NCBI GenBank assembly: GCA_963662175.1
Contig: OY759225.1
Coordinates: forward strand, 8,195,107 to 8,259,106
Direction of reading: 5' to 3'
Source: Aradus depressus
Lineage: Eukaryota > Arthropoda > Insecta > Hemiptera > Aradidae
DNA: 64,000 bases
Below, piece by piece: positions 4,955 to 53,160 of the stretch (its first letter is position 1; every line of letters begins with the position of its first letter). The notes beneath the pieces were generated by a model, which was not told the origin of the DNA, did no database searches, and saw only the letters and a program-made list of their open reading frames with translations. Made by a program: the position numbers and the translations under genes.

Positions 4955-4993
4955 ACTACCTGAAGATGTCGAATTGCCGAAACTAGTTGTGGT
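4955..4993 (+). ncRNA. Hammerhead-ribozyme-like motif 1
   Basis: Core CUGAAGA at 4960-4966 and GAAA at 4979-4982. Helix I can pair ACTAC (4955-4959) with GTGGT (4989-4993). Helix III is the palindrome ACTAGT, with U at position 17 before the predicted cut. Helix II (4968-4978) is the weakest part. One extra base (T, 4967) lies between A9 and helix II, as in the other copies here. It is probably part of a Penelope-like element terminal repeat. Function is not shown. Confidence 0.55.
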
Positions 4994-5056
4994 AAAAATA
5001 AAATATGTTGGACTGATACATCCGTATTATTTATTTTACTGAGTATTTGTTAAGTC

Positions 5057-5083
5057 GTGGCTGAAGATGGTAGCAATACCTAA
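5057..5083 (+). ncRNA. Hammerhead-like motif 2 (decayed)
   Basis: Second motif about 100 bp downstream on the same strand. Core CTGAAGA at 5061-5067, helix II GGTA-GCAA-TACC with a GNRA loop, but GAAA has become TAAA and the palindrome AGTACT has become ATTACT. The 3' flank (ttttgtgaaatagac) recurs at the other copies. Likely inactive. Confidence 0.45.
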
Positions 5084-5328
5084 ATTACTCCCTTATATTT
5101 TGTGAAATAGACTATATTAAAAAAAAAAAAAAAAACATTTTTCTTTATTTTTCAATATTAATGTTTAACTGAATTAAATACAAAAGAATACTGTATGGTC
5201 TTCTTGAATCCTGTCCTTCAGCAGTATCCACATTCACATCTCCAAACCAACCTTGGGTTCTACTACGACGAAGATTACCCTGGAACACCCATACAAGATT
5301 GATATGACAACCATAACCTCATAAGGAC

Positions 5329-5487
5329 AAGTATTTTACTCGTGAAAACCCCCTACCCTGGGTTATAAACCTGAATAGACAAAATTTAGAACTCCCATAG
5401 TAGAGTTGGGCTCATGTCCATCAGAGCGAGGAGATAAAACTCTGGTAGTAGGCGATATGACCATGTAGTTAAAGCCCGGGCATGAGT
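5329..5487 (+). mobile_element. SINE-A fragment (plus)
   Basis: The 3' half of the SINE, ending in gcccgggcatgagt. It is diverged, and the tRNA head is absent. It lies in the POLR3A intron between exons D and E. Confidence 0.75.
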
Positions 5488-5726
5488 TACAGTAACTAAC
5501 CTGTCGATTTTCAGATCCCCAACTGCCGAAGTAATGGATGTAACGGCATGAAATTTTATGTATGGATTCAGAATCCAATGAGCAATACATCTGTTGATTT
5601 TCTGATATTTCTTGGTGGAGAAGTACATCATGATTCACAAACGACTTTCTTCTTTCGTTATGAATTTCCGCATAGTAACCCTCCCTCCTAACGTTTCTCT
5701 TTAAAGTTTGTGTTGTTTGTCGGTAG

Positions 5727-5911
5727 GGCGTGCCGAATGTGAACCGAGCGGTGATCCACAGCGAAGACGAGGAAGGAGTGACCCGTTACAAGCTCTTGGT
5801 GGAGGGTGACAACCTCCTGGGAGTGATGGGCACCATCGGAGTGAAGGGTACCAAGTGCAGATCTAACAACACTTTCCAGATGTACACCGCACTTGGCATC
5901 GAGGCTGCCAG
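5727..5911 (+). CDS. POLR3A: POLR3A coding exon E
   Basis: Acceptor tttgtcggtag|ggc, donor ccag|gtaatt. Phase 0 entry, 61 codons plus 2 bases. It encodes [17 protein letters not shown], then [10 protein letters not shown], then GVKGT...[17 protein letters not shown]. The VPEV.RAVIH-like, LLVEGDNL and LGIEAAR motifs are diagnostic of the RPC1 C-terminal core. Its splice donor lies within a 15-bp sequence that a LINE insertion has duplicated at 6612-6626. Confidence 0.94.
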
Positions 5912-5918
5912 GTAATTA

Positions 5919-6611
5919 TATATATATATATATATGTGGTGGGCTAGTGTTTTACACCTAGGGACCTAAGCATCCAGTGCTCTTATCCCTTCCCTGGAAG
6001 CGCTGGGCTTCCCCCTTATTATATTACCTGTATGTTTATACTACCTGAACCAAGCCCTTCATGAAGTGCTCTGTCTCCCAGTTTCCTGGGCTCTCATAGT
6101 CTAGGCTTCTAAAGTCCTCCTCTGCGATTATATCTCCACCAAAGATGCGGAATCTCATTCGCGCATATCCCGAGCAGCTGCCCAGGAAGTGTTCCGCCGT
6201 TTCGTCTTCTTCCCCACATCTATCGCAGGTAGGACTGTCCTCGACTCCCACAGTGTGTAGGTGTCTATTGAACGGACCGTGTCCTGTGAGAACTCCAGTC
6301 AGTTGCCTAAGCTCGTCCCTTTTGAGGTTCAGGATCCCCTCTTTCAGAACTCTGGGACTCCCTTCCCAGGAACATCATCGACTGCCTGCATGTGGTCTTT
6401 TCTCTCCATGTACGCTCCAAAATGTTCGGTATGTCTCCCGGCTTACTTGAACCTTCCTTGGCTAGTCGGTCTGCCTCTTCGTTTCCCTGGATCCCCGAGT
6501 GTCCAGGAACCCAGTAGAGTCCAATCTTCTTGCACTGCTCGGATGTTTAACTGATTTGCGCACTCCCTTACCAGCTTTGATCTGATTTCTGCGCTGGCAA
6601 ATGCTTGGAGT
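5919..6611 (-). mobile_element. LINE insertion (minus) that duplicated the exon E splice donor
   Basis: 5'-truncated LINE in reverse direction. Minus-strand frames give the RNase H end (AALQAFASAEIRSKLVREC) and a zinc-knuckle tail (CDRCGEEDETAEHFLGSC), so it belongs to a Jockey/R1-like group. The 15-bp repeat GCTGCCAGGTAATTA stands on both sides (5904-5918 and 6612-6626) and is the target duplication. The LINE 3' end carries a (TA)n stretch in place of poly(A). A related copy is at 41455. Confidence 0.82.
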
Positions 6612-6944
6612 GCTGCCAGGTAATTACTCTTCACCACAAATTCAACTTGGGGCAATTTGTCAAAATTTCTTACACTAATATATTTTTAGTGTCTATATTC
6701 TTCTTCCATCTATTTTTTTTTCGTTTGCACAGCCTAGCAAATGTAGACGTTTCGACAAGATTTCTTATCATTATCTAAAACCTTTTTTTTTTTTCTAAAA
6801 GGTTACAATAAATAACATAATTTTTCTGGTACGTTACATAAAATAAGCAACAAGAGACATATTTTTGTTTACGAAAAATTGGGAAGAGGAAGGGAAAACA
6901 ATTATAAATAAGGTGGAGGGAAGGACTTATTGCCTTTCCAGCTA

Positions 6945-7140
6945 TACGAAGTATAGTGGAAGTTGTGAAATCGGTCAAAGGTTTGAGTCTGTCTGTGAAC
7001 ACAATAACTCTCTATGTAACGAATATAACGACACGAAATTTTATATGTGTGTCCAGAACTACATAAGGAAATTCCATATTGATTTTCAATATCAGAATTT
7101 CAAAATCGGCCAAAGGGAATGAGATAATTAGGAGGAGGCT
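6945..7140 (+). repeat. Family X interspersed repeat
   Basis: Copy of the most abundant repeat of the window. It opens with a tacgaagtatag-like motif and ggaagttgtgaaatcgg (usually ggaagttatgtaatcgg), passes a tgtctgtgaacacgataact segment and a 'tatcgacacgaaatttta' segment, and goes on to a block like gccaaatcggccaaaggg. I know no coding function. It might be a non-autonomous DNA element or a dispersed satellite. Confidence 0.6.
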
Positions 7141-7451
7141 AGATATTTCATATTTAAATTAACAACCTCATAAGGATAAGGACGATATCTATTGATTTTT
7201 AGCTGAATCGTCCGAAAGGGACCCCCTTCGATTCGAGGAGCTGATGTATTTGTTAAAATACAGTACTCAATGAAGGGTAGGGGAATTTTTTAAGTATTTT
7301 TTTCGTGTTCAGCACACCAAAAAACATGAAGTTTATAAGTTTCATAATTTTGGCCAGAACTTTGTTCATTTTGCTCCAGTATGCGAGGGTTTACTGTAAA
7401 GTAATATTATTATATAAATAGCTTACGTTGTATATTGTATGTGATTTTTAA

Positions 7452-7491
7452 AGGGTCTGAGGATGGTTTAACAACCGAAAGCGCTCACCCT
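7452..7491 (+). ncRNA. Hammerhead-ribozyme-like motif 3 (all helices intact)
   Basis: The best hammerhead match of the window. Helix I AGGGT (7452-7456) pairs with ACCCT (7487-7491). The core is CTGAGGA (7457-7463). Helix II is GGTT-TAAC-AACC (7465-7476). GAAA is 7477-7480. Helix III is the palindrome AGCGCT, followed by C at position 17. One extra base (T 7464) lies between A9 and helix II. In Penelope-like elements such type I hammerheads with a palindromic helix III are thought to act as dimers. Self-cleavage is predicted, not shown. It lies in the POLR3A intron between exons E and F, sense to the gene. Confidence 0.65.
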
Positions 7492-7644
7492 AAATAAATA
7501 TTTTGTATGAGAAAGGACTATTTTTCTTAATAAATAAAATTGTATGATGTTTATCATAAATCAATATACCAATAACATGTTAGTTATTCATATAATTCTT
7601 TAACCCTCTTTTGATAATGCCTAATAACTGGTGATTTGTTGTAG

Positions 7645-7813
7645 ATGGACGATCGAGTCTGAGATTCAGATGGTAATGGCGAACCATGGAATGTCTATTG
7701 ACCAGCGTCATGTGATGTTAGTCTCTGAATTGATGGCATCTCGGGGGGAGGTGTGCGGGATTCAACGTTTCGGACTGGCCAAAATGCAGGAGTCCGTTCT
7801 CAACCTTGCCTCC
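7645..7813 (+). CDS. POLR3A: POLR3A coding exon F
   Basis: Acceptor tttgttgtag|a, donor tcc|gtaagt. The first base completes Arg, then the frame gives [49 protein letters not shown] and NLAS. The [18 protein letters not shown] block is one of the most conserved parts of largest subunits. It ends in phase 0. An open frame that continues past the donor to 7984 is intron read-through. Confidence 0.94.
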
Positions 7814-7984
7814 GTAAGTCCCCGTACCCATCTACCTCTGTCTCCTCTTCGAATCTACCTCCAACATCATAATATTGTCAGCCATCTACCAAAAGCACTC
7901 AAAACTCAAAAGAGAAATTGTATCTCAGTTAAAACATCTTTGAAAAAGAAACAATGTTGTCCGAAACATTTTTTACTTCCCTAG

Positions 7985-8250
7985 ATAAACAAAGTATAGG
8001 GGAAGTTATGTAATCGGTTTGAAATTCGATACTAAGTTTTTAGAGGAATTTCATCCAAAAATGAAAAAAATAAAAATGCCTGTCAGGATGTGTGTCTGTG
8101 AAGACGATAACTCCCGATAGATTGAATGTATCCAAACGAAATTTTACATGTGTATCTAGAACCCTCTAAGGAGATCACATGTTAATTTTCAGCCGAATCA
8201 GCCAAAGATAAGGGGGGGGGGTGGGGGGGTTAGGAGAGGGACCTAACATA
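7985..8250 (+). repeat. Family X interspersed repeat
   Basis: Same opening and subunit pattern as the copy at 6945, ending in a run of G (about 8211-8229). It directly abuts the exon D duplicate at 8254. Confidence 0.6.
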
Positions 8251-8253
8251 ACA

Positions 8254-14845: not shown

Positions 14846-15345
14846 TGTTCAGGCGAGTTGCTTGAAGTTGCCGCCAGTTTCATTTATTATTTTGTATATT
14901 TAGATACCCCCTCCCACTTGTTGTCCTGATAGGGATTAGTACCCTCTGTACTCCTAAGTCTGTCCCCAGTTGTCCTTTGGATGCCTCTCCCTGAGGTTGT
15001 ATCCCGTTGCCGCTAAGGCCCCAGTCTATCCCGTTGCCGCTAAGGCCCCAGTCTATTCCCAGTTGCCTCTAAGGCCCCAGTTCTCTCTACGTTTCGTTGC
15101 CTCCCCCTGAGGCCCCAGTTTGCCTGCTCCAGATAGACCGTCCAGACTTCCGTCCAGTAAGGTATTTAATACAATAGCAATCGCTGGCCAGCCATTTGTA
15201 ATTTGTTTTAGATGCCCCTGGGCGAGGAAGGCTCTGCCTGGAAAATGGTAAGTTATATATAGTTCATTTCTAATTAATACAGTCCACTGTGAAAACCCCC
15301 CTCCGTATGCTCCCCTGATTAGATATTTCTGCAGGGGCGCCTACA
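14846..15345 (+). repeat. BEL/Pao 5' LTR
   Basis: Begins TGTTCAGGCG and ends GGGGCGCCTACA. It holds two exact tandem 24-bp units (gttgccgctaaggccccagt...) and a third degenerate one (about 15005-15080). The stretch ttatatatag near 15254 may be a TATA element. This LTR should start the genomic RNA. Confidence 0.93.
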
Positions 15346-15591
15346 TTTTGGTCCTACCGGGCAAGGATACGAATTTTGTTTGTGGCGTATCCAGCCAGCA
15401 TACCCCCCCCCCCCCCCCCCCCTCTTTGTAATTTTGATTTAATGTTGCCCCTCTTTTTATATTTGGTTGTAGCGTAGCCAAGCAGCTTTATCGCCCCTTT
15501 TGTATTTGTTCAATTTTATTTTTATTTTAGGTAGCCAGATAGCACCTTCTCATTAGTTTTTTCTTTTGTTTTGACACAACCCTTTTCCATC

Positions 15592-18500
15592 ATGTCAAAG
15601 AAGGAAGAAGAATCCGAACTTTCAGAGATCGGTGTGAAAATAGCAGTTGCCCTTGCTAGTAGAGAATTAGTGTTTTCGCAGGTCAGTGCGACCCTTAATG
15701 AGTCCAAGCGGTTAACCGTTGACACTTTGGACGATTTCACTCCGGCTTATCAGCGCTTAAGTGATCTAGTCTCACAGTTCAGTGCAATTCAACAAGAGCT
15801 TATCCTCCTAAAAGTGCATGCTACAAAGCACGAATCTAAGTCTGTGGAGATAACTAAGGTACAGCTTGCGTTTGACCAGCTTGTTGACACAACTCGAGCC
15901 AACTACTTGAGGTGTAAAAGACAAACACCTGTAGACCATATTATCACACCTTCGGCACATCAATCCCAATCAGTTTTACCTCGCATAAACATTCCTGTTT
16001 ATAATGGCGAAATTTCTAAGTGGCAAGAGTTTATATCTCTATATGACTCTTTGGTTCATAGTAATAGTTCTCTCAATCAGTTGCAGAAATTTCATTATTT
16101 ACGAGCCGCTCTGAAGGGCGAAGCATTATCGTTAGTTGCATCTCTCCCTTTGATGGAAGAAAATTACACCCTCGCTTATGAAGCCCTAAAAATGCGATAT
16201 GCTAATAAGCGACGCCTATTAACATATTATTTACAAAATATTTTGGATTTCCAGTCTATATCCAAACCATCCTATGATGGGCTTAAGAATTTTCTGCAAG
16301 TTCATCAAAATAATGTGAACGCTATTAAAGCTTCCAATGTGCCTAATTTAGCGGATTTTCTTTTATTTTCATTAGCTCTTTGTAATTTAGACCCTATTAC
16401 TCGTCGAACCTTTGAATCCAGGCAAGAAGCTAATTGTTTACCAGCCTATCAAGATTTAATTGATTTTGTAACGAATCAAGAAAGGTCGTACGAACTTGCT
16501 CCCCCAAGCAAATGTCCAGTTAGTAACTGGAATAAAGCTCAAACACTTATGTTAAGTTCTGCTAGCACTAGTAGATCTAGGTTAAGCAGCCCAGAAAATA
16601 TTAATCCGTCGTCTAATGGAAAATTTAGACCCCATTCGCCTGTTAGTTTCTCATGTCCGCACTGTAGTGCGCCTCACACTCTTTCAAGATGTTTATCGTT
16701 TCTCTCCCTTCCAGTTGATAACAAATATCAACTTTTGCGAAAGTGGAATCGTTGCTTCAACTGCACAGGTACACATTCACGTAAACAATGCCCTTCCAAC
16801 AAGGTATGTCAACATTGTTCTTCCAGGAATCACCATACTATGTTGCACCCCGTCAACATGGATGGTTCACCGAAACGTCCCCTAGCCAGTGGCGTAGGCA
16901 CGCAACCGGAGCCCCCCAAACCAGCTCAAGAGTCTCAAGTGATGTCATGCCACTACGAAGCCACATCCTCTGCCCCTTCTACTGTCCTCCTTGGAACAGC
17001 TCAGGTATTGATAAGAGGCAGTGACCAATTGTTTTACCCTTTCAGAGCAGTTTGTGACCCTGGATCACAAGTATCTATTTTGACTTCGTCGGCCACCCAG
17101 ACCCTCGGTCTTAAACCCTCATCTACTTCTAGATATCTCACTGGCATAGGACAGACCACCAGTAAGCCCATAGGCCAAGTGTCCTGTTGTTTGAAGTCTC
17201 GGCTCTGTGACAAGTCTTTTAATGTCAATGCTCTCGTGATGCCAAAGATATCCGGTAACATGCCATCTGTTTCGTTGCCTGAAGATTTTGTGAAGCGCTT
17301 TAAAGACCTCGAATTAGCTGACAGTCAGTTTTTTAAATCCTCAAAAGTCGACCTCCTTATAGGTGCCGATTTGTATCCAGAGATTCTCAATGACTCTGCG
17401 ACCCCTATGCTGCTCAAAGGTAATCCATCCGCCATCAGCACATATTTTGGTTGGGTAATAACTGGCTCTATAACTGGTAATTTGTCTCTGAGTCCCTCTC
17501 AGTCATTGTTAGCAACTTGTGAAGATGTAAATGACACCCTCGTCAAGTTTTGGCAAACAGAGGAAATTGACAACCCGTTGCCAAATAACCCCTCGTATGA
17601 CTTTTGTGAAGAATCCTTCAAGGTCACCCATACCAGAACAGAAACTGGTAGATATGTCGTTGCACTCCCGTTTAGGCCCGGTGCTTCTCCGCTAGCGTCT
17701 AATACTAAACGCTCCCTCTCGTCTTTCTATTCTCTAGAAACCCGGTTGTCTAAGGACCCCAAGAAGTATGAAGATTATAGAAGCTTCATGTCTGAGTACA
17801 TATCCCTCTCGCATATGTCCTCAGCCCCTAAACCATCAAATTACGTCATTCCTCATCATGGCGTATTAAAGTTGGACAGCACCACCACCAAACTCCGTGT
17901 GGTTTTCAATGGTTCTGCTCCTGATTCCACTGGTCTATCACTCAATGATCGACTGCTCAGTGAACCCAAGTTACAGCGTAACGTCTCGGCTATTTTGTCT
18001 TCTTTCCGATTCCATCGTATAGCCCTCTGCTCTGATATCAAGATGATGTACAGACAGGTTCTTCTTCATCCCTCTCAACGTGAATATCAGCACCTTTACT
18101 GGCGTTCAAGTACCACCGAACCGGTCCAGGAGTATGAGCTTAACACCGTCACCTATGGCCTGGGCCCCAGCGCCTTCCTAGCTCAACGGGTGCTGAAGCA
18201 GCTTGTACAAGATGAAGGAGAAGCTTATCCCCTCGCTTCCCTCGCTATAGTGGACAACACTTACGTTGATGACATCATTACAGGAGCTAGGGACGAAAAA
18301 TCTGCGATTAGGCTTCGTGATGAACTCATTTCATTGTTGGGAAAAGGTGGTTTCGAGCTCCGGAAATGGTGCACCAACACTCCCGCTGTTCTTGAATCTC
18401 TCCCTCTCGATCACCTAGACTCTACAGTTGTGTTCTCCACAGAAGACAAAGCTTTAAAAATTTTGGGTATGTTCTGGGAACCCCAGTCTGATTGTTTTTC

Positions 18501-20829
18501 CTTCACAGGAAATAGTTTCGAAGGACCTATCACCAAGCGTTCAATCTTGTCTTACATCGCCAAGATTTTCGATCCGCTTGGCCTTCTGTCACCGTTCATC
18601 TTTACTATGAAGTTGATGCTGCAGCAGCTCTGGCGCCTGAATCTGGACTGGGACACTGAGGTCACATATGATCTCGCTAAATTGTGGCATAAGTTGCATT
18701 GTGACATAGACAAACTGTCTAACCTCAAGATTCCACGTTATGTTCCATCCGACCCTTCTTTCCAATACAGTCTCATCGGTTTCTCTGATGCTTCTATTCA
18801 TGGATTCTCTGCGGTGCTCTATCTGAGGATATTCGACGGTAGCACTGTTCATGTAGTGTTATGGAGAGCAAAGAGCAAAGTTGCGCCTCTGAAAGTGTTA
18901 ACTATTCCCCGTTTGGAGCTCTCTGGTGCCCTACTCCTTTCTAAGTTAGTTTCCTCTGTGCAATCTGAAGGTTTTCCTCATCCCATCTCTGCGGTTTACC
19001 TTCATACTGATTCACAGATTGTTCTGTCCTGGTTAGCCACACCCCCACATTGTCTCAAAACGTTTGTGGCTAATCGAATCGTCTCCATATTGGAACTCAC
19101 CAAACCATCGTATTGGAGTTATGTGCCTAGCGCGGACAATCCTGCCGATTTGTCTTGTCGCGGACTGTCCCCTGCGCAACTTGGATCCTTGTGGTTCCAA
19201 GGCCCTAGTCAGTTAGTTTCCGATTTTCCCTACTGGTCAGGAGAAAATGCCGTTCATGAGTATAATACTCATGCCCATGTACTCGAAGAGATGAAGTCTG
19301 CGGACACATCCCTTATGGTGGAAGATAAGAAGAATAAACACCCCCTCTTGATCCTCATCGAAAAGAACTCATCGTTTCTGAAGCTGCAGCGTGTTTGTGC
19401 GTGGCTTCATCGTTTCGCCAACAATACACGTTCACCCTCTGGCATTTCACGTACTAGTGGACCCTTAACTCCACAGGAACTTGAGATTTCACTTGTGTGT
19501 CTTCTCAAGGTTACCCAGCAGTATCATTTTCATACGGATATATATCGTTTACAATCCAACCTTGAGGTGTCTCCCAGTATTGCCTCTTTGCACCCATTTC
19601 TCGATCCATCGGGACTCCTCAGGGTGGGCGGTAGATTACGGCACGCTAACATCTCTTATGATGCGAAGCACCCTATATTATTACCAAAAGAAGCACACTT
19701 ATCCAGGCTTATCTGTGGACACTACCACCTCGTGTCTCTACATGCTGGTCCCAGAGCAGTTCAGTCCATGATACAAGCAAAATTCTGGATAATTTCCTTA
19801 CGTGGTCTTCTTCGTAAATGTATTCATGCATGCGCAACATGTCACCGGTTTCGAGCCTCACCCTTTCGTCCGATCATGGCAGATCTTCCCGCTCACCGTG
19901 TGACAGTTCAGCGTCCCTTCCTGACTACTGGTGTTGATTATGCTGGCCCCTTTCCTGTGAAAACCAGTAAGTTGCGTAAATCCCCTCATTATAAGGGGTA
20001 CCTGTGTCTTTTTGTGTGCTCTACCACTAAGGCAGTGCATTTGGAGTTCGTCTCGGAACTCACCACCGAAGCATTTCTTGCAACCTTTGATAGGTTCATC
20101 GCACGCCGAGGTCTTCCCTCTCAGATCATCTCTGATTGCGGACGTAACTTCGTTGGAGCCTCTCGTCAACTGCAGGAACTTCATAAGTTCCTTCAGTCCC
20201 ATCATACAAGTATTTTCGATAATTTATCGAATCGTCAAGTATTATGGTCCTTCAATCCCCCTTATACTCCTCACTTCGGAGGGTTATGGGAGAGTGCCAT
20301 CAAATCCGCCAAATCGTTACTTCATCGACTCATCGGAGATCGTGCACTCACCTTTGAGGAGTATTCTACATTATTTTCAAGAATAGAAGCGGTTCTCAAC
20401 AGCCGACCCCTCTGTGCTCCATCTACAGATCCCGAAGATGCTGTGGATTATTTGACGCCCGGTCACTTTCTGATTGGTTCTTCGCTCCTGGCTCCTCCCG
20501 AGCCTCTTATTGAAGAATCAAAATCTCCTCGTCATCGTTGGCACTTGGTCCGTCAACTTCATCAATCCTTCTGGAGAAGATGGTCCACGGAATATCTCAA
20601 CACCCTGATCCAACGCACCAAATGGAAGAAGGATACTTCCACTCCAGAGATAGGGGACCTGGTATATGTGCCCGATGACGCACATTCCCCTCTCTCTTGG
20701 CCTCTGGCTCGTATCACGGCTGTGCACCGTGGTACTGATGGGGTAGTACGAGTAGTCACTGTGAACACTCCCGCTGGAATATTTACTCGTTCCGTTCACA
20801 AACTCCTCCTCCTCCGAGATATTTCGTAG
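15592..20829 (+). CDS. BEL/Pao Gag-Pol polyprotein
   Basis: 1745 codons from the first ATG (15592); the frame is also open for seven codons upstream but without an ATG. Domains by residue: coiled gag with a DUF1759-like segment (about 60-230); zinc-knuckle region with several CxxC pairs (355-430); retroviral-type aspartic protease near 489, where the usual D-S/T-G reads DPGSQ; reverse transcriptase (about 700-960) with palm motif YVDD at about 891; RNase H starting GFSDAS near 1065; integrase with HH-CC zinc finger (CATC near 1413) and the DDE core D about 1449, D about 1515 (ISDCG), E about 1567; DUF5641-like C-terminal domain (about 1620-1740). No stop or frameshift. No env-like frame. The protein carries out reverse transcription and integration in a cytoplasmic particle. 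The DPG protease triad is the one odd residue. Confidence 0.95.
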   Translation: MSKKEEESELSEIGVKIAVALASRELVFSQVSATLNESKRLTVDTLDDFTPAYQRLSDLVSQFSAIQQELILLKVHATKHESKSVEITKVQLAFDQLVDTTRANYLRCKRQTPVDHIITPSAHQSQSVLPRINIPVYNGEISKWQEFISLYDSLVHSNSSLNQLQKFHYLRAALKGEALSLVASLPLMEENYTLAYEALKMRYANKRRLLTYYLQNILDFQSISKPSYDGLKNFLQVHQNNVNAIKASNVPNLADFLLFSLALCNLDPITRRTFESRQEANCLPAYQDLIDFVTNQERSYELAPPSKCPVSNWNKAQTLMLSSASTSRSRLSSPENINPSSNGKFRPHSPVSFSCPHCSAPHTLSRCLSFLSLPVDNKYQLLRKWNRCFNCTGTHSRKQCPSNKVCQHCSSRNHHTMLHPVNMDGSPKRPLASGVGTQPEPPKPAQESQVMSCHYEATSSAPSTVLLGTAQVLIRGSDQLFYPFRAVCDPGSQVSILTSSATQTLGLKPSSTSRYLTGIGQTTSKPIGQVSCCLKSRLCDKSFNVNALVMPKISGNMPSVSLPEDFVKRFKDLELADSQFFKSSKVDLLIGADLYPEILNDSATPMLLKGNPSAISTYFGWVITGSITGNLSLSPSQSLLATCEDVNDTLVKFWQTEEIDNPLPNNPSYDFCEESFKVTHTRTETGRYVVALPFRPGASPLASNTKRSLSSFYSLETRLSKDPKKYEDYRSFMSEYISLSHMSSAPKPSNYVIPHHGVLKLDSTTTKLRVVFNGSAPDSTGLSLNDRLLSEPKLQRNVSAILSSFRFHRIALCSDIKMMYRQVLLHPSQREYQHLYWRSSTTEPVQEYELNTVTYGLGPSAFLAQRVLKQLVQDEGEAYPLASLAIVDNTYVDDIITGARDEKSAIRLRDELISLLGKGGFELRKWCTNTPAVLESLPLDHLDSTVVFSTEDKALKILGMFWEPQSDCFSFTGNSFEGPITKRSILSYIAKIFDPLGLLSPFIFTMKLMLQQLWRLNLDWDTEVTYDLAKLWHKLHCDIDKLSNLKIPRYVPSDPSFQYSLIGFSDASIHGFSAVLYLRIFDGSTVHVVLWRAKSKVAPLKVLTIPRLELSGALLLSKLVSSVQSEGFPHPISAVYLHTDSQIVLSWLATPPHCLKTFVANRIVSILELTKPSYWSYVPSADNPADLSCRGLSPAQLGSLWFQGPSQLVSDFPYWSGENAVHEYNTHAHVLEEMKSADTSLMVEDKKNKHPLLILIEKNSSFLKLQRVCAWLHRFANNTRSPSGISRTSGPLTPQELEISLVCLLKVTQQYHFHTDIYRLQSNLEVSPSIASLHPFLDPSGLLRVGGRLRHANISYDAKHPILLPKEAHLSRLICGHYHLVSLHAGPRAVQSMIQAKFWIISLRGLLRKCIHACATCHRFRASPFRPIMADLPAHRVTVQRPFLTTGVDYAGPFPVKTSKLRKSPHYKGYLCLFVCSTTKAVHLEFVSELTTEAFLATFDRFIARRGLPSQIISDCGRNFVGASRQLQELHKFLQSHHTSIFDNLSNRQVLWSFNPPYTPHFGGLWESAIKSAKSLLHRLIGDRALTFEEYSTLFSRIEAVLNSRPLCAPSTDPEDAVDYLTPGHFLIGSSLLAPPEPLIEESKSPRHRWHLVRQLHQSFWRRWSTEYLNTLIQRTKWKKDTSTPEIGDLVYVPDDAHSPLSWPLARITAVHRGTDGVVRVVTVNTPAGIFTRSVHKLLLLRDIS

Positions 20830-20956
20830 TGCCCCCCTTAATATTGTATATAGCTCAAAGTTATTTTTTCTGTTTTAGTTTTTTAGTGTTACCCGTCTCA
20901 GGAAGTTCAGTTCTTTATTTAGCTTGAGTAAATTATTTTAATTTAGGTGGGCGGTA

Positions 20957-21456
20957 TGTTCAGGCGAGTTGCTTGAAGTTGCCGCCAGTTTCATTTATTA
21001 TTTTGTATATTTAGATACCCCCTCCCACTTGTTGTCCTGATAGGGATTAGTACCCTCTGTACTCCTAAGTCTGTCCCCAGTTGTCCTTTGGATGCCTCTC
21101 CCTGAGGTTGTATCCCGTTGCCGCTAAGGCCCCAGTCTATCCCGTTGCCGCTAAGGCCCCAGTCTATTCCCAGTTGCCTCTAAGGCCCCAGTTCTCTCTA
21201 CGTTTCGTTGCCTCCCCCTGAGGCCCCAGTTTGCCTGCTCCAGATAGACCGTCCAGACTTCCGTCCAGTAAGGTATTTAATACAATAGCAATCGCTGGCC
21301 AGCCATTTGTAATTTGTTTTAGATGCCCCTGGGCGAGGAAGGCTCTGCCTGGAAAATGGTAAGTTATATATAGTTCATTTCTAATTAATACAGTCCACTG
21401 TGAAAACCCCCCTCCGTATGCTCCCCTGATTAGATATTTCTGCAGGGGCGCCTACA
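20957..21456 (+). repeat. BEL/Pao 3' LTR
   Basis: Same 500 bp as the 5' LTR, with no visible substitution. Its end is 93 bp from the stop codon of the convergent TMEM135-like gene, so it may overlap that gene's 3' UTR on the opposite strand. Confidence 0.93.
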
Positions 21457-25374: not shown

Positions 25375-25416
25375 GTCGTGACTGATGAAGGTAGCAATAC
25401 CGAAAGTACTCCCATA
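25375..25416 (+). ncRNA. Hammerhead-ribozyme-like motif 4
   Basis: Core CTGATGA (25382-25388), extra A, helix II GGTA-GCAA-TACC with a GNRA tetraloop (25390-25401), GAAA (25402-25405), palindromic helix III AGTACT, C at position 17 (25411). Helix I is weak: one A-C mismatch next to the core, then G-C, U-A and G-U. The flank ttttgaaataaacaatattt resembles that of the other copies. It is antisense to the TMEM135-like gene, in its intron. Confidence 0.6.
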
Positions 25417-25583
25417 TATTGTACAATTTTTTTGAAATAAACAATATTTTAAAAAGCCTAAGTTTTTTATTTATTTATATGTTTATCAAAGGTTTGAAAT
25501 CCTTAGGTATTTTTTTTTCTTGGAGGTAAAAAAACCTTGACAGACTTAAAACTTATTCGTTAAATACTATAATATAACAAAAC

Positions 25584-31140: not shown

Positions 31141-31785
31141 TATACGGAGTGGCCCAGATAAGCGGGCCACAAGTGAAATAACTCCTAAACGGTTAGAGAT
31201 ACCAACATTGTGCATAGGACTAAAATTGTAGCACTCGCCGAGAGCTATGGTATAGCGTCCTCGGAAAGACATAGATGACCCTTTTATAGGCTCAAACAGC
31301 CCTTCGAAGGGCGGGGTTCCCTTTTGACCCTTAAGTTTCATTACATTTTATTAAAGTACTAATGAAACAAGGAAGAACTGTGCAAACAGATTTTTGATAC
31401 GTCAAGTAGTTCTCGGAACAAAAACTATTAAAGTTGCACGTTTTTCTTATTCTGAAGTTAGTTGGAATTTAATAACTTCAGAATAAGAAGAACGTGCAAC
31501 TTTAAACGGGTTTTTTCAAGAACTACTTGACGTATCAAAAATCTGTTTGCACAGTTCTTCCTTGTTTCTTTAGTACTTTAATAAAATGTAATGAAACTTA
31601 AGAGTCAAAAGGGAACCCCGCCCTTCGAAGGGCTGTATGAGCCATTAAAAGGGTCATTTTTGTCTTTTCAAGGACGCCACACTATAGCTCTTGGCAAGTG
31701 CTACAACTTTAGTCCTATGCACAATTTTGATATCTCTAACCGTTTAGGAGTTATTTCACTTATGGCCCACTTATCTGGGGGTATA
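31141..31785. repeat. Large palindromic element (arms about 315 bp)
   Basis: Left arm from ggagtggcccagataag to tattctgaagtta (31460). Right arm from taacttcagaata (31473) to cttatctggggg. The loop is about 12 bp. It lies between TATA-rich flanks. Open frames in both arms are mirror images and not genes. It looks like a foldback DNA element of unknown family. It lies 3' of exon 2 of the TMEM135-like gene. Confidence 0.8.
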
Positions 31786-32319: not shown

Positions 32320-32880
32320 GCGCATTAACGGATGGACGGATTATCATGAAATTTCACATGTAGTATTCTTAAAAGCATAGTTAAAAAATAGGCTGTGTGG
32401 CGTCCCTAAATTTTGAACGGGGGGGGGGGGGTTGTAAGGCAGGCCTAAATATAAAGATAGTTCTGTCATTAACGGATGCTCGGATTGTCATGGAAGTTTA
32501 TATGTAGTTTTCTTAAAGGCCAAATTGAAAAATACGCTAAGTGACATTTCAAAATTTTGAACGGGAGGGGGGGTTGTGGGGGTAGGCCTAAATATAAAGA
32601 TAGTGATAGGTCTTTAACGGATGATCGGAGAGTCATGGAATTTCATATGTAGTATTCTTAAAGGCCAAATAAAAAAATATGGTGTTTGACGTCACAAAAT
32701 AGTGAACGTGAGGGGGGGTTGTGGGGGTAGGCCTGCATACAAAGATAGTTATAGGTCTTTAACGGATGATCGGAATGTCATGGAATTTCACATGTAGTAT
32801 TCTTAAAAGACAAAAACAAAAAAAAGGATATGTGACGTCTCAAAATTGTCAACGGGAGGGGGGTGTGGGGAGAGCAAGCA
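32320..32880 (+). repeat. Tandem repeat, four units of about 148 bp
   Basis: Units start near 32320, 32464, 32612 and 32760 with attaacggatg.tcgga. Each goes on with tcatggaatttcacatgtag and a g-rich stretch (gggagggggggttgtggggg). The sequence before (32140-32320) with ctcgagaacggctggaccaa belongs to the same family. It lies upstream of exon 2 in intron 1 of the TMEM135-like gene. Confidence 0.8.
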
Positions 32881-33359: not shown

Positions 33360-33600
33360 AATTAATAACATTTTCTGCAGATATATTGTGAAACACTTAA
33401 TAAAAAATAAAGAAAAACTCATATTGTTTAAAAAATATTGTCTATTTCACAAAGAATATAAAAAAATATAAGAGTACTTTCGGTATTTATACCCTCTCAG
33501 CCACGACATAACAAATAATGTGTTTGTTTTCAATACCGAAAGTACTCCCATATATTATATGTATATATACTTTGTGAAAGAGACAATATTTTTAAAAAAT
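33360..33600. repeat. Foldback with hammerhead remnants
   Basis: Outer arms tattgtctatttcacaaag (left) and ctttgtgaaagagacaatat (right). Inside, the minus strand at 33513-33477 reads GTGGCTGA...GGTATAAATACCGAAAGTACTC: helix II, GAAA and the AGTACT palindrome, but with a broken core. The plus strand at 33530-33548 reads aataccgaaagtactccc. It is a mirrored pair of decayed hammerhead ends, the same family as motifs 2 and 4. Confidence 0.55.
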
Positions 33601-34030
33601 ATACATTTTTTAAATTTTTTCTTTAGTAGTTTGAAATTTTTAACATTTTTGTGTTGAGATTCTAAATTTATAATAATATACACTTTCATAAAATAAGTTC
33701 TGCATAGAAAATGTTATAATTAATGTAAGGAAAAAAAATTAATAACAGTAAAGATCAGAAAATAAATTTATATACTGAAGTTGAGAGTTATTTTCGATAC
33801 GTTTATTTTGTGGTTTGGAAACACCAAAATATTTATTTGAAGAGGAATAAAGTTGTCAAAATTATATATATTATTATTTACGATTTTTTAATTGAAAAAT
33901 AAGAAAAAATAACAGACAAGGGATCTCATGCAAGAGCTTGCCTATTAAATTTTACAATAAAATTTGCTTTGTTAAATAAAAAATCAAAAGTTTTCACTAT
34001 TTATGATATTAATATAATAAAATAACTTAC

Positions 34031-37876: not shown

Positions 37877-37889
37877 CTTGGATTTATTA

Positions 37890-38634
37890 ATTTATGGTTT
37901 CCAGATTTACTTTGTAAAGCTCCATTCTAGTAATAGATAATTAAAATACACAATTTCTTTGTTCACTATAGTATATTATATTCTCAAATACTCAACTAGT
38001 AAATCCTTTAAGATTAGATACAGGGAACACACAAGAAATACAAACTGCAACACTTCCTCATTTCACCAACATCTCACAGACACAGGACATACCATAAACA
38101 CACAACACAAACCAACTATAATACATATCTGCCAAAAAGGTCCACTTTTGAATTTACTGGAAGCGGTAGAAATAAATAAACTGAACAAAAATAACGATAT
38201 TGTAATGCTAAATGAACAAATAGAACTGAACCAATCCCCCCTTCTTAATTTAAATATCAAGTAGCTAAGAGTCTGATGATTGTAGAAATGTTTTGCCAAC
38301 TGACATTCAGAGAATACTATAATTTTCATTTGATGTTTTAATTTGCCTTTAAATTCTATTTATTTGTTTTTATTCACTTTTTTCTTTTTTATTTTATATT
38401 TATTATTATCTTGTAAATATCTGTTTATTGGAATGTATAGAGTAACAAAAACAAGGGATTCCCCGTCACTACCTAAAAAAAAAACCCTCCATAACTGTAC
38501 CTTCTACCCCGTCAACCAATTCTGTCAGTTTATAAGTGACTCTTGATAATGCCTTAACACGGCGAAACTAGTTGAGTATTTGAGAATATATAGTGAAGTT
38601 TGACAAAGAAATTGTATATTTTAATTATCTATTC
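37890..38634 (+). mobile_element. Penelope-like element fragment with inverted terminal piece
   Basis: Flanked by the 13-bp duplication CTTGGATTTATTA (37877-37889, 38635-38647). From 37998 the frame encodes the C-terminal half of a Penelope-type GIY-YIG endonuclease: SFKIRYREH, HLTDTGH, KGPLLNLLEAVEI and LLNEQ..L..SPLLNL, with a stop near 38264. The GIY-YIG start and all of the RT are missing. The 3' tail 38568-38634 is repeated in reverse at 37934-37999, and the two copies meet the frame at the palindrome ACTAGT. A decayed hammerhead motif sits just before the 3' tail. Confidence 0.85.
38539..38577 (+). ncRNA. Decayed hammerhead motif in Penelope-like 3' terminus
   Basis: Helix I ACTC (38539-38542) pairs with GAGT (38574-38577). 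Core reads TTGATAA in place of CTGANGA. Helix II is GCC...GGC (38551-38563). GAAA is 38564-38567. Helix III is the palindrome ACTAGT, U at position 17. C3 and G8, both needed for catalysis, are lost, but all helices remain. Confidence 0.6.
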
Positions 38635-38659
38635 CTTGGATTTATTATTTTGTACTAGC

Positions 38660-41454: not shown

Positions 41455-42591
41455 AGCCCTTCATTGAATACCCAGTCTCCTAGTTTTCTTAACGAATCTG
41501 AGAATGCTCCCACGGTAGAATCTCGTCCGAGTGTATACCCAGGAAGTGTGCCGCCGTCTCGTTTTCTTCAACACATCTATCACAGGTAGGACTCTCCTTG
41601 ACTCCCACAGTGTGTAGGTGTCTATTAAACGAACCGTGTCCTGTGAGAACTCCAATTAGTTGCCAAAGCTCGTTCCTTTTGCGGTTCAGTATCCCATCCT
41701 TCAACACCTTGGACTCCCCTCCCAGGAATATCTTCGACTGTCTGCATGTGGTTATTTCTCTCCATGACTGTTCCAAAAGGTCTGTAGTTTATTACTTTCT
41801 TTGGCCAGTCGGTCGGCTTTAGGGTTGTAAAATCGATAGTTGATGTTAACAATAGTTTCGATAATATCGGCATTAAACTATCGATACTATCAATAGTTTA
41901 AGGACTTTGTATTTCTGGGATGCACTGAATAGAAGGAAGGTTACATTTACTGTTCTTGTAGAGTGTTTCGTTGCTTTGAACTGAAAATTTACTATTCTGG
42001 TGGCGTGCTTTGTTGTTTTGAACTAAAAAATGAGTCGTAAACGGAAGTCCGAAGTGTGGAATTACTACGATAAGGATGTAGATAAAAAAAAACTGGCTAA
42101 ATGTCGTTTTTACAGTGCCGAATTCAGAACTTCCGGGAACACTTGTTGGTTTTTTGTTCTATTTTATTTTGTAGAGAGGTTTCTGATGTTCTAGTGTTTG
42201 ATTTTAGTTGTTCTTTTTTGATTTGATATTTTTTGTTAGTACCTAACAATGAAAACTCATCTGGTCAATATATAATATATATATATACGTGTTTTGAATT
42301 CATATTTTTATGTTCAATTGAAGTTTGTAGTTTAGTTCCTGATTGCGTTAACGAACTGATCTGATCAGAGAAATATAGGGACTTACACTGTACGACATCT
42401 TGTTTATTTGTCTTCCTTAAATTACTTACATGGTACATGTGTGCATATACTGGATGTCACTTCTCCTTAAAAAAACATTTCGATAGTATTATCGATAGTT
42501 TCAAAAACTATATTTTTAAACTACCTATCGTTACTATCGATATCACCATCGATAGTTTTACACCCCTTGTCTGCTTCTTCGTTTCCCTGAA
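41455..42591 (-). mobile_element. LINE fragment (minus) split by a hAT element
   Basis: 41455-41819 and 42569-42591 belong to the same LINE family as 5919-6611 (shared caccgtgtgtaggtgtctatt-like and ggtctgc(c)tcttcgtttccctg segments). The minus strand gives a zinc-knuckle tail CDRCVEENETAAHFLG. Confidence 0.82.
41820..42568 (+). mobile_element. Non-autonomous hAT element with BED-finger remnant
   Basis: Ends tagggttgtaaaa and rc aaggggtgtaaaa. Many atcgatag motifs near both ends. 8-bp target duplication gtcggctt/gtctgctt (41812-41819, 42569-42576). From ATG 42030 it encodes MSRKRKSEVWNYYDKDVDKK and AKCRFYSAEFRTSGNT, the BED zinc-finger start of a hAT transposase. The second Cys has become Tyr/Ser, and the rest is lost. 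Confidence 0.85.
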
Positions 42592-42607
42592 TTTAAAAGT
42601 GACTTTT

Positions 42608-42641
42608 GTGCTGACGATGGCGTAAGCCGAAACCGGTGCAC
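42608..42641 (+). ncRNA. Hammerhead-like motif 5 (G at position 17)
   Basis: Helix I GTG (42608-42610) with CAC (42639-42641), core CTGACGA (42611-42617), extra T, helix II GGC-GTAA-GCC, GAAA (42629-42632), palindrome ACCGGT. Position 17 is G, where cleavage needs A, C or U, so this copy should not cut. Confidence 0.6.
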
Positions 42642-42806
42642 CTTATGTATATATTTTTGTGGAATTAGACATTATAATAATGTTAGACATTATTATAATG
42701 TTCTTGGTATTTATATATTCTGTGATTCCTTGGAACAGCTATTGTACTTGAGTCAAGTTGACTGAAAGGGACCAGTTCGAGTTGTAGTTCAAACTAGCCC
42801 CAAGCG

Positions 42807-42972
42807 ATGCGCATCATTCCCTGGTTTGTTAGAAAGTACAAGATCCAGAAGGAACATCCTCAGTTGGCAGAAACTGATAAGAAAGTTGCAAAGAAAACTT
42901 GTATGGGTCTGTTAGGAGTTCGTGTTCCTGGCTTCAGCCAACATGTAGTGTCTCTTCAACCAAGACCATTCG
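42807..42972 (+). CDS. Candidate host exon (unassigned) with U12-like donor
   Basis: 55 codons from ATG: MRIIPWFVRKYKIQKEHPQL, then AETDKKVAKKTCMGLLGVRV and PGFSQHVVSLQPRPF. The composition is protein-like, it has no repeat match in the window, and an in-frame TAG lies at 42795-42797, so the ATG would be the start. The sequence after 42972 is GTATCCTT, a full match to the U12-type GT-AG donor. I do not recognise the protein. It could instead end at the in-frame stop a few codons on. Confirmed only by RNA or homology. Confidence 0.35.
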
Positions 42973-42999
42973 GTATCCTTCAAATTCTACTCAACTAAT

Positions 43000-43435
43000 T
43001 TGACTAAAAAGGAATTCATTCGAAACTTATAAATTTTATAAAAAGAAAAAAAAAGTCCCGGCTATGTTGACACTATATTCATATATATAATATGCATATA
43101 CCCTATCCTGCCCCTAATTCCCTGACACTGTCACAAACCTATAGTTAGGGGGATATTTATGTGTAACATAAGATATAATGATGTATGTATATAATGTTGA
43201 ACAAAAATGATGTAGATATATAATGTGAAAATTGTGTAGAACCACTATATTTCTTATATAAGAGTAGCTATTGTGCAATTATAATAAATAAAGATATATA
43301 GTAGAATATAGAATAGAAATATGTAAATAGTATTACCTGAAGAGATAGAAAAAGCCAAGTTATGTATAGACCTTCTGGAACATGGGTCCAGAACACTCTA
43401 TGAGCCTATATAAATGGCCGCCCAGGCAACCTCTC
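43000..43435. other. Unassigned AT-rich stretch
   Basis: AT-rich sequence with atatata runs. No exon seen. Confidence 0.35.
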
Positions 43436-43590
43436 AGCACTCTAGTTTTTGATAGCACTCTTGTTTAAGAACTCCAGTATCGCACTCTAGTTGGCACTCC
43501 AGTTAGCACTCTAGTTTTGATCGCACCCTAGTATTGCACTCTTGTTTAAGTACTCTAGTTTTGGCACTCTTAATTTATAACTCACTCTAA
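43436..43590 (+). repeat. Degenerate tandem repeat based on gcactctagtt
   Basis: About ten irregular units like gcactctagttttgat and cactcttgtttaag. No function seen. Confidence 0.6.
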
Positions 43591-43781
43591 CTTGTATTTT
43601 GATCAGTCACAGTTCACTATTGCAATCCAGTGTATTATTTCTTAAATGAATAAAACAAACTTATTTTTGAAATATTGTCTATTCCACTAAAGATATTTAT
43701 AAAAATAAAACTACCGGTTTCGGCCTCACACCATCGTCAGGTCTAGTTATGAACTGAGAAGTGAGAAGTGAGTTCATAACT

Positions 43782-43815
43782 AGACCTGACGATGGTGTGA
43801 GGCCGAAACCGGTAG

Positions 43816-43817
<2 letters not shown>
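43782..43817 (+). ncRNA. Hammerhead-like motif 6 (right arm of foldback 1)
   Basis: Core CTGACGA (43786-43792), extra T, helix II GG...CC (43794-43804), GAAA (43805-43808), palindrome ACCGGT, A at position 17. Helix I GAC with GTT (one G-U). A mirror copy lies on the minus strand at 43743-43711. Confidence 0.55.
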
Positions 43818-43885
<68 letters not shown>

Positions 43886-43945
43886 TTAGTGGAATAGACA
43901 ATATTTCAAAAATAAGTTTGTTTTATTCATTTATTACAAGTTTCC

Positions 43946-44510
43946 TACGCCTAGCCCTAGAGGAAGAGATGCGCGGACAGTCCAGACCAGTGCGCTGCAA
44001 GGACATCGTCCAGAATTGGATTGTGGAAAAATGGCAACAACGTTGGTCACGATGCCCGGATGGGCGAACGACATACGCATACTTCCCGGACGTCCGGGTA
44101 CGCCTTGACTCAACATGGGTACAGCCTAATCACTGGACGTCTCAAATATTATCAGGTCATATGGTGATTTCAACTCCAAGCTGTTCTTCTTTCACAGGAA
44201 GAACACCCCGAACTGTTCGTGCGGCGGTATCGAGACTGCAGAACATGTGGTCCTCGAATGTCCGCTGTACGACCAAGCTAGGGTGGAGTTGATTCATGGG
44301 ACAAGATCGTATTTGGGACTGGATCTACGGCAGATGGTGACGGAAACAGACTACCCGATGTTCTGCCGATTCGTCGGCTCCTGGCGGGAGCAGAAACAGG
44401 CAACGTAAGATGGTAACCCCTTGATCCCCGAGCTTTGACCAAACGTAGACAGGGTGATATTGCTGCAATGCAAGGCGCACCCTCTTTTGAAAGCAAATAA
44501 AAAAAAAAAA
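43946..44510 (+). mobile_element. LINE 3' end inserted in foldback 1
   Basis: Target duplication AAGTTTCC (43938-43945, 44511-44518) and A-rich tail. Frames give QNWIVEKWQQRW and HWTSQILSGHG, then after a frameshift FFFHRKNTPNCSCGGIETAE HVVLECPLY, an R1/Jockey-type tail with its zinc knuckle. The uninterrupted target is seen at 52636-52652 in foldback 2. Confidence 0.85.
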
Positions 44511-44826
44511 AAGTTTCCACAATATGTCCGCGTTCCTCAACTTAGAAGTTATTATTTCTTATCTTATGTATGTGAGTTCTTGCCCTGAACTTTGTAAGTA
44601 CAAATATATATATATTTTATGTTACTTGCCAGAATTCTTATTTTTATTACGGTCTACTGTCAATAAGTGGCCATGTTATAGGGTTTTAAATTTACATATG
44701 AATACGACAGTTATTACAGTTTTTGGCTGATTTGGCAGAAAATGTAAAGGTGTCGTCCATAGAAGGTTCTGGATACATATGTAAAATTTTTCGTCTTCAC
44801 AGACATGCACACATAGACATAAAGGA

Positions 44827-50600: not shown

Positions 50601-50601
50601 T

Positions 50602-50800
50602 CGCTCCTAGCGATCGCGATTCACTCGCAGGCATCGCTAGTTCCAAGCATGTTCTTCTAAATGAAATTATCTTCAATTTAACTCCAAACAACCCATAATT
50701 CGCTCTTGTTTCGCTCCTAGCGATCGCGATTCACTCGCAGGCATCGCTAGTTCCGAGCATATTCTTCTAAATAAAATCCTCTTTAAATCAGCTCCAAGTG
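50602..50800 (+). repeat. Tandem duplication of about 104 bp
   Basis: The segment ttcgctcctagcgatcgcga + ttcactcgcaggcatcgctag + ttcc(a/g)agcat appears at 50600 and 50706. A third weak trace is tcgctcgtagtgtcac near 50812. Confidence 0.8.
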
Positions 50801-50892
50801 GCCTCGATTCGCTCGTAGTGTCACTGGTCCTTGCTGTATAATAATAATAATAATTGTCTATAGGGTAGACATGCTACACTAGTTCCTTAGTT

Positions 50893-51069
50893 ATTGTGAC
50901 TCATGCCCACAACTTCGATGTCATATCGCCTACTACCAGATCGCACTTTCGTCACTCTGATGAACGTGAGCCCGACTCTACAAGAAAGTTCTAAATTTTA
51001 CCTACTAATTTTTATTCACTTAGGGTAGGGATCTTTAATGAGTACCACCACTGAGCTCCCGGCGCTCCC
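50893..51069 (-). mobile_element. SINE-A copy (minus), large internal deletion
   Basis: Tail side gactcatgcccacaac; the part from the B box to the middle is missing; it ends tgagctcccggcgctccc. Confidence 0.75.
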
Positions 51070-52010
51070 TATAGTCAATCTATTGTTGATATTGTGACTG
51101 TATTGTTTTATTGTACAACAATGAATCAATGTGATTTTTTAATTTTTCATAGCATTATTTTTTTTTTTAGTATTAAATGAATATATTGTTTCTTTGTATA
51201 TTTTTATTTTTGATTGGATCGCTAAGAGGACGCCTTCATAAAAATCCCAGCACTTGGTAAGTAGAAAACAGGCTAATAATATATATTTTTAAAATATTTA
51301 TGCATCAGTTTAGTTGCACTTCAAAATTTCATTTGATTCAAAATGAAATAATACAAGTTATTATGTTCAAACCTCATTAGACTGAGCAGAAGCTTACCCG
51401 GCTTTCGAAGTAACCTGTTACTTGCAACCTGTTATATTTAAAGATACTAGTTTTCCTAAATTCCTACTCAGTTCATATTTCACGATTCGTGAGTCGTTTA
51501 AAGTTGAAGAGAGTCTTATTCAGCAAGAAATTTCGTAATCTATAGTTAAGGTCATATGAAGTTTATCGTGCCTGTAGTCGTTTTAGCCTAAATTGTAAAA
51601 AAGCCATAAAATAGGCAAACGTGGGAAATACGAGTCTGAGTATCATTTTGGTGCCACATTTACTCCCGGCGCTGGCCAAGAGAGCAGCTAAAGTAGCAAA
51701 CATATTTAGGGCGTGCTAGTGATGATTAGCTTCTCCCCTCATGAAATCCTCTTGCCTTCAGCTCTCCTTTCCTTCTTGGTCTGCCGCCACTGCTGGTCAG
51801 TGGTGAGGCTCCATTAAGTTGGAGGGATGGGGATAAAATAAAATAAAACAATCAATGTTGAATAATATATGATTGGAAGAGTATTTTATATATCATTCTG
51901 TATTTATTTAGAATTGATAATGACAAGAAGTCGAAACGTCTATATGAAATAAAGAAAATATTTTTTTTAAATATATTCATACCTCAATTGCCTCAAATTA
52001 CCATATTGAA
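51070..52010. other. Unassigned stretch with one hammerhead-like trace
   Basis: No exon found. At 51912-51945 the sequence ttgataatgacaagaagtcg + aaacgtc has helix II GAC/GTC, GAAA and an ACGT palindrome but a core like that of the decayed Penelope motif. Confidence 0.35.
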
Positions 52011-52350
52011 AAGATATATTAGAGTTTTTGTGTTAAGCCTCTCCCTAATATCCTCTTTCCTTTCGGTCTATTTGGCTGAAATTCAATACATGTAGTTCTT
52101 AGAGGATTTTGGGCACACATATGGAATTTCGTGGCGATTCATTCTATCTGAAGGTACCGCGTTCACAGACACAGAGAGATATAATTTTTTTTTTAAGTTA
52201 CCGATTACATAACTCATCCAAAATCCAATAACTATGACACCTATTGATTTTCAGCCAAATCGGACAAAGGAATGGGGAGAGGATTAAGAATTAAGATGAG
52301 AGGGTTCTCAACTCAAAAACTTTAATAATTGCCGATGATGTAAAGGGGGT
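52010..52350. repeat. Family X block
   Basis: Contains rc and direct subunits (gattcattctatctgaagg; ccaaatcggacaaaggaat; ttgccgatgatgtaaa). Confidence 0.5.
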
Positions 52351-52608
52351 CATTTCGAGCTTTGATTGGTTTCTTTAAATAATTTATAATAAATTAAATT
52401 AAAAATGTCAAGTAATGAGGAATTGTTGATATATGGTGCTGTGGCTATTTACATTGTTGCATCCAAAAAAAGAAATCGAAGAAAAATTTGGGTTAAAGAC
52501 TGGCTTTCAAATTTTTATTTTTTAAAAACAATAAAAACAACACACACTAAACAATAATTATTAATAAACTTTTAAAACTTAATTTTATTTATTGAAAACA
52601 AAGAAATC

Positions 52609-53160
52609 TTCTAAGTTGAGGAACGCGGACATATTGTGGAAACTTGTAATAAATGAATAAAACAAACTTATTTTTGAAATATTGTCTATTCCACTAAAAA
52701 TATATATATACAACTACCGGTTTCGGCTTTATACCATCGTCTGGTCTAGTTATGAACTAAGTCAGTTTGCAGAGAGCGACCCTTCTAATACATCTCGGGT
52801 GAAAGGGTGCCATTAAAACTTGGGAGTCCCCCGGCTGTACCGTTATAAATCGTATTTGTATTTGTACTTATTTATTTGTTGTTTTGCCACGATTAGTCTA
52901 GTGACATTGTTTTATGTAAATTTAGAACTAGGTTTTGATAAGAAATATTTCATGAGTTAGCTAACGGTACAGCCGGGGGACTCCCAAGTTTTAATGGCAC
53001 CCTTTCACCCGAGATGTATTAGAAGGGTCGCTCTCTGCAAACTGACTTAGTTCATAACTAGACCTGACGATGGTATAAAGCCGAAACCGGTAGTTGTATA
53101 TATATATATCTTTAGTGGAATAGACAATATTTCAAAAATAAGTTTGTTTTATTCATTTAT
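52609..53160 (-). mobile_element. Hammerhead-bearing foldback element 2
   Basis: 12-bp target duplication AACAAAGAAATC (52597-52608, 53161-53172). It has the same ends as foldback 1: on the minus strand it opens (t)aaatgaataaaacaaac and closes with the tttccacaatatgtccgcg...cttagaa tail. Arms hold hammerhead motifs at 53058-53096 (plus) and 52746-52706 (minus, core mutated to CAGACGA). A further inner arm of about 95 bp (gtcagtttgcagagagcgac ... gtaccgtta) and a loop of about 115 bp are absent from foldback 1. Confidence 0.82.
53058..53096 (+). ncRNA. Hammerhead-like motif 7 (foldback 2)
   Basis: Core CTGACGA (53064-53070), extra T, helix II GG...CC, GAAA (53083-53086), palindrome ACCGGT, A at position 17 (53092), helix I GAC with GTT. 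Same form as motif 6, with a different helix II loop. Confidence 0.55.

Follow-up and report, generated by a model that had tools for sequence, protein, structure and literature searches.

Hammerhead ribozymes in a 64-kb stretch of the Aradus depressus genome, very likely carried by terminal repeats of Penelope-like retroelements

A stretch of 64,000 nucleotides from the hemipteran Aradus depressus (contig OY759225.1, positions 8,195,107 to 8,259,106; hereafter the window, with a GC content of 37%) contains several short motifs that resemble hammerhead ribozymes, which raises the question of what kind of element carries them. The initial annotation had listed seven such loci, proposed that their helices change in pairs and concluded that several ribozyme-bearing subfamilies had been active; neither the type of element nor its head-to-head structure was recognised. 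We propose that the loci are very likely terminal repeats (pLTRs) of Penelope-like retroelements, which fall into about six subfamilies and are mostly present as truncated copies; their type I hammerheads would cleave as dimers, and their insertion would involve priming on both target strands. The proposal starts from the motifs, their paired variation, the inverted arms, the long and short ends and the target-site duplications, from which we infer cleavage, dimers and two-strand priming.

All seven loci were located and their cores confirmed by scanning, with core starts at 4960, 7457, 25382, 38543, 42611, 43786 and 53064 (copies are named below by these positions), and our alignment (A1) holds 11 copies. 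The core alone is weak evidence, because the bare pattern matched 19 times when 4.84 matches were expected by chance. A strict scan requiring the helices gave 4 matches where 200 first-order Markov sequences led us to expect 0.015 (at most 1 in any of them), and a looser structural scan gave 12, with 1.46 expected from 100 second-order Markov sequences (at most 5). Ten of these 12 are real loci, to which the decayed copy at 5061 adds the eleventh; the other two, 24124 (-) and 14133 (-), are AT-rich and probably chance matches. The copies absent from the initial annotation are 43740 (-), 52743 (-), 33500 (-), the decayed 5061 (+) and 33525 (+), which is truncated. The last was the only credible one among four further matches (E values of 0.01, 0.062, 0.18 and 0.57) of a model, R1, that recovers its 11 training copies by construction. 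At gathering scores, no Rfam family, hammerhead models included, matched anywhere in the window, and a permissive Rfam scan of 42300-44000 gave 28 matches, none to hammerhead families; the best were microRNA-type hairpins, because the inverted element in that region (A43) is a near-perfect hairpin. The proposed origin accounts for this cluster of ribozyme motifs, which lies below the Rfam thresholds.

The copies share the architecture of minimal type I hammerheads, in which CUGANGA is followed by an extra nucleotide (U or A), helix II, GAA, a palindrome and helix I. Helix I has 3-5 pairs, helix II 3-4 pairs, and helix III is a 6-nucleotide palindrome that is perfect in 10 of the 11 copies. A structural scan that left no room for this extra nucleotide behind the core recovered none of the loci, so the nucleotide is general, the exception being 33500, which is also one core base short. 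The sets of helices appear to define about six subfamilies. Two copies are probably inactive, judging from their letters: 42611 has a G, a base that does not normally permit cleavage, at cleavage position 17, and 25382 has A-C as its first helix I pair. The core said to be decayed at 38539 does carry two changes (copy 38543), both in the C3-G8 pair (C3 to U, G8 to A), whose pairing is retained; they may be compensatory or plain decay, as this is a single copy with two transitions. In the Anolis Penelope-like element PAc, a swapped C3-G8 pair partly restores cleavage (PMC11167929).

Self-comparison and an inverted-repeat search revealed five head-to-head inverted structures (Table 1), which contain 8 of the 11 copies; 7457, 25382 and 42611 are solo. 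Target-site duplications flank three of the five, A43, E38 and A53, and measure 12, 13 and 12 bp; the zones compared were picked after inspection, and in a control only 7 of 3000 random pairs of zones shared at least 12 bp. The same three elements have a tail of about 40-45 nucleotides (our count) at one end and none at the other. The tail ends of A43 and A53 lie no more than 2 nucleotides apart, and C33 and C5 each have a recognisably related tail on the left. The word GTGRAATAGACAATATTT, drawn from these copies, was found 9 times where 0.36 occurrences were expected, and 8 of these lie next to subfamily A and C hammerheads; with up to 3 mismatches allowed, it is absent beside 4960, 7457, 38543 and 42611. 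The right tail of A43 is interrupted by an insert (43946-44512) with a poly(A) end and GTTTCC flanks, probably a poly(A) retroelement fragment. In C33, C5 and E38, one arm of the inverted repeat ends in or beside a hammerhead (at helix II, the cleavage site or helix III), perhaps because the templates had been cleaved, or else by coincidence. Within C5, the two hammerheads, of subfamilies F and C (4953-5097), have the same orientation, are about 100 nucleotides apart and carry palindromes that do not match each other.

Table 1. Hammerhead copies, inverted elements and the open stretch in E38 (window coordinates)
Feature	Position	Strand	Core start	Remarks
Hammerhead F	4953..4995	+	4960	ACTAGT palindrome; in C5; one mismatch in helix II
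Hammerhead C, decayed	5053..5097	+	5061	GAAA to TAAA, palindrome broken; in C5
Hammerhead D	7450..7493	+	7457	AGCGCT; solo
Hammerhead C	25375..25418	+	25382	AGTACT; solo; first helix I pair A-C
Hammerhead C	33465..33508	-	33500	AGTACT; left arm of C33; core one base short
Hammerhead C, truncated	33525..33547	+		Right arm of C33
Hammerhead E	38536..38580	+	38543	ACTAGT; C3U and G8A; in E38
Hammerhead B	42604..42645	+	42611	ACCGGT; solo; G at position 17
Hammerhead A	43705..43747	-	43740	ACCGGT; left arm of A43
Hammerhead A	43779..43821	+	43786	ACCGGT; right arm of A43
Hammerhead A	52708..52750	-	52743	Left arm of A53; U4 to A
Hammerhead A	53057..53099	+	53064	Right arm of A53
C5	4846..5169	.		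Degenerate head-to-head; inverted repeat 4846-5169; best arms 53 nucleotides, 72%; no convincing duplication
C33	33375..33640	.		Head-to-head; inverted repeat 33391-33632; doubtful 9-bp duplication TAACATTTT (33366, 33641)
E38	37890..38634	.		Head-to-head; inverted repeat 37924-38641; tail at left end; duplications CTTGGATTTATTA (37877-37889, 38635-38647)
A43	43645..44549	.		Head-to-head; inverted repeat 43643-43945; tail at right end, split by insert; duplications TATTATTTCTTA (43633-43644, 44550-44561)
A53	52609..53160	.		Head-to-head; inverted repeat 52644-53165; arms 97-99% complementary; tail at left end; duplications AACAAAGAAATC (52597-52608, 53161-53172)
89-codon open stretch	37995..38261	+		In E38; putative likeness to an endonuclease C-terminus

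The helices do change in pairs, as first proposed. The quoted changes are present, and in the full set of 11 copies 82.6% of the 132 cells are paired and the covariation score is 0.608, neither value being reached in 500 shuffles, while sliding the partner along lowers pairing to 28-45%. Of five measures, however, two were not unusual, the number of pairs changed on both sides and the number of pair types (49 and 66 of 500 shuffles as high, respectively), and several rows of the alignment are close relatives. With one representative for each of the six subfamilies, 21 of 24 positions in helix I pair, and the only one of 720 permutations to do as well is the true arrangement; in helix II 17 of 18 pair, but 72 of the 720 permutations are as good, so that this helix alone is not significant. 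Some of the helix sets first quoted also need correction, given the A-C pair at 25382, the helix II mismatch at 4960 and the alignment of GTG with CAC at 42611, which leaves G at position 17, and 43786 and 53064 turn out to be one subfamily with three helix I pairs, one of them G-U. The conclusion that several subfamilies had been active is borne out in part: distinct subfamilies do emerge from the roughly six helix sets and from the duplications at three elements, with few independent lineages among them, and their activity is visible only as past insertions with duplications.

In the palindrome, the inner pair is CG in 6 copies and UA in 5. This variation fits pairing between two copies, because the inner pair of a 6-nucleotide palindrome cannot form within one hairpin. 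Among the predicted dimers of 7 copies, only that of 38543 forms all three hammerhead helices; 7457 forms helices I and III with helix II shifted, and the other five fail.

A type I hammerhead in a terminal repeat, head-to-head pLTRs, a short duplication and an optional tail on one side are all features of Penelope-like elements. In these elements an inverted pLTR lies beside a direct one, head-to-head is the commonest arrangement, duplications measure 8-10 bp and one inverted pLTR may carry a 31-bp tail (PMC3846280), while minimal type I hammerheads that could act as dimers have been found in pLTRs (PMC7761336). Alternatively, the palindromes could be non-autonomous DNA transposons (foldback elements or miniature inverted-repeat transposable elements) whose terminal inverted repeats happen to contain hammerheads, an origin that would agree with the long inverted arms, the short part between them and the target duplications. 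We regard this as quite improbable, given that the tail makes the two termini unequal in all three elements with duplications, that the length of the duplication is not fixed and that three copies are solo rather than inverted. Animal retrozymes, short non-autonomous elements that spread by way of small RNA circles and whose type I hammerheads are repeated in direct tandem, have been reported from molluscs to arthropods (PMC7229834), and they would agree with the hammerhead type, the low GC content and the shortness of the elements seen here. However, nowhere in the window is a hammerhead unit (about 170-400 nucleotides) repeated in direct tandem, helix III is of the short palindromic kind and the arrangement is head-to-head, which makes a retrozyme origin highly improbable. 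That AT-rich DNA produced the motifs by chance is a practically negligible possibility: the frequency of the bare core and the insignificance of helix II alone would allow it, and the structural scans, the paired variation and the placement in inverted elements with duplications contradict it.

If the loci are Penelope-like, their insertion could proceed as follows. With its 6 nucleotides, the palindromic helix III cannot function well in a single molecule, so the transcripts of two copies, in tandem or separate, would join by their palindromes and undergo cleavage as dimers; dimer action of such ribozymes is reportedly established elsewhere. An endonuclease would cut both target strands, as in a published in vitro system, and each cut end would serve as a primer for the reverse transcriptase, which would start at a site that lies downstream of the hammerhead, at some distance from it. 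The two complementary DNAs would join by their 5′ ends, and the result would be a head-to-head insert flanked by short target duplications. The end that started at the outer site would carry the tail (the long end), and the one that started at the inner site would lack it (the short end). In PAc, both target strands are cut and extended in vitro, and the tail corresponds to two internal start sites that lie next to each other (PMC11167929). The cleavage site of A53 lies 23 nucleotides after the AUG, compared with 26 bp in PAc (PMC11167929). The role of cleavage in Penelope-like elements is unsettled in the literature (PMC7761336). Three insertions with duplications show a tail at one end and none at the other; if this rule applied genome-wide, it would provide a test of two-strand priming at two RNA start sites, which the in vitro work on PAc left open.

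Several observations weigh against the assignment to Penelope-like elements or against this mechanism. The A43 duplication was not seen as a shared word at first and emerged when the right tail was traced past the insert; the only candidate in C5 is an A-rich word, that in C33 is doubtful, and the flanks of the three solo copies show no convincing duplication. Neither a reverse transcriptase nor a complete GIY-YIG domain was found in the stretches searched, which did not cover every frame. The 89-codon open stretch in E38 bears a putative likeness to the C-terminus of a Penelope GIY-YIG endonuclease, to which searches and fold prediction gave no support: Pfam returned only a sub-threshold DUF3718 match, the protein, viral-contig and NCBIfam searches found no relatives, the PDB search gave one unrelated match (E value of 1.7), and the predicted fold is poor, with a mean predicted local distance difference test (pLDDT) score of 38.4. 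In the PAc in vitro system, cleavage by the hammerhead depended on added protein, hammerhead mutants left insertion unaffected and the start sites were alike on both strands (PMC11167929), and palindromic junctions have been attributed to self-priming on the antisense template (PMC3846280). Finally, in four of the six subfamilies (A, B, D and E), an AUG is followed by one codon and then a stop in loop II, unlike in PAc, where the open reading frame starts at stem II, with its AUG at the stem II start (PMC11167929).

This last feature deserves separate mention. An AUG, made by A9-U-G, overlaps the core in 9 of the 11 copies, and in the four subfamilies it reads AUG-GUA-UAA or AUG-GUG-UGA, AUG-GCG-UAA, AUG-GUU-UAA and AUG-CCU-UAA, so that the stop is the third codon. 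From stop frequency alone, at least four of six subfamilies would show such a stop with P = 1.9e-4, a value to be read with the facts that the pattern was spotted after the event and that the subfamilies are related. One could imagine that the hammerhead also serves to switch translation, in that a two-codon upstream open reading frame, with ribosome stalling or re-initiation, and ribozyme folding would be mutually exclusive. We consider this unlikely; the UAA-bearing loop may instead be kept for folding. A literature search on upstream open reading frames in such ribozymes matched 999 papers in part, and none of the 15 listed contained both hammerhead and Penelope, which does not show that no such report exists.

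The window holds other features besides the hammerhead-bearing elements. About 135 bp downstream of hammerhead D, positions 7628-7981 match RNA polymerase Rpb1 domain 5 (PF04998, E value of 2.2e-9) and are perhaps a host exon. A BEL/Pao element at 15000-21451, with an intact-looking open reading frame of 1752 amino acids, looks recently inserted, because one open stretch and one 27-bp tandem array each recur on either side of it, about 6.1 kb apart; among the 120 relatives listed for its polyprotein, those with an organism name are arthropods. An interspersed repeat of about 320 bp (2184-2502) recurs in at least about a dozen further places in both orientations, its closer copies being about 88-96% alike. 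Positions 31153-31779 form a stretch of 627 bp that is 90% its own reverse complement and carries no hammerhead, and 32323-32870 is a tandem repeat with a period of 145 bp and 3.8 copies. Outside the window, a pattern scan of viral contigs gave a single match, L001, which over the 501 bases read is GC-rich and without visible relation, and it was set aside.

Among known systems, minimal dimer-type hammerheads of Penelope-like elements were reportedly described by Cervera and de la Pena in 2014 and by Lunse, Weinberg and Breaker in 2017; they resemble the copies in the window in being type I, in having a very short helix III and in the dimer action expected of them. The hammerheads of amphibian satellites and animal retrozymes are also of type I, and the amphibian ones, with a weak helix III and a palindromic loop, work as dimers (PMC7229834, PMC6155905); in contrast to the elements described here, they lie in direct tandem repeats, without inverted pLTRs or tails. 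The closest likeness is to the Penelope-like elements Pen2a_Av of Adineta vaga (PMC3846280) and PAc of Anolis (PMC11167929), with which the elements of the window share head-to-head pLTRs, a short duplication, a one-sided tail, a hammerhead in the terminal repeat, an AUG overlapping the start of stem II and TATATATA near the hammerhead. They differ in that the window shows no protein-coding copy, in that the duplications measure 12-13 bp rather than the 8-10 bp published for Penelope-like elements (PMC3846280), and in that the tail has 40-45 nucleotides, compared with 31 in A. vaga or 30-40 in D. virilis (as cited there).

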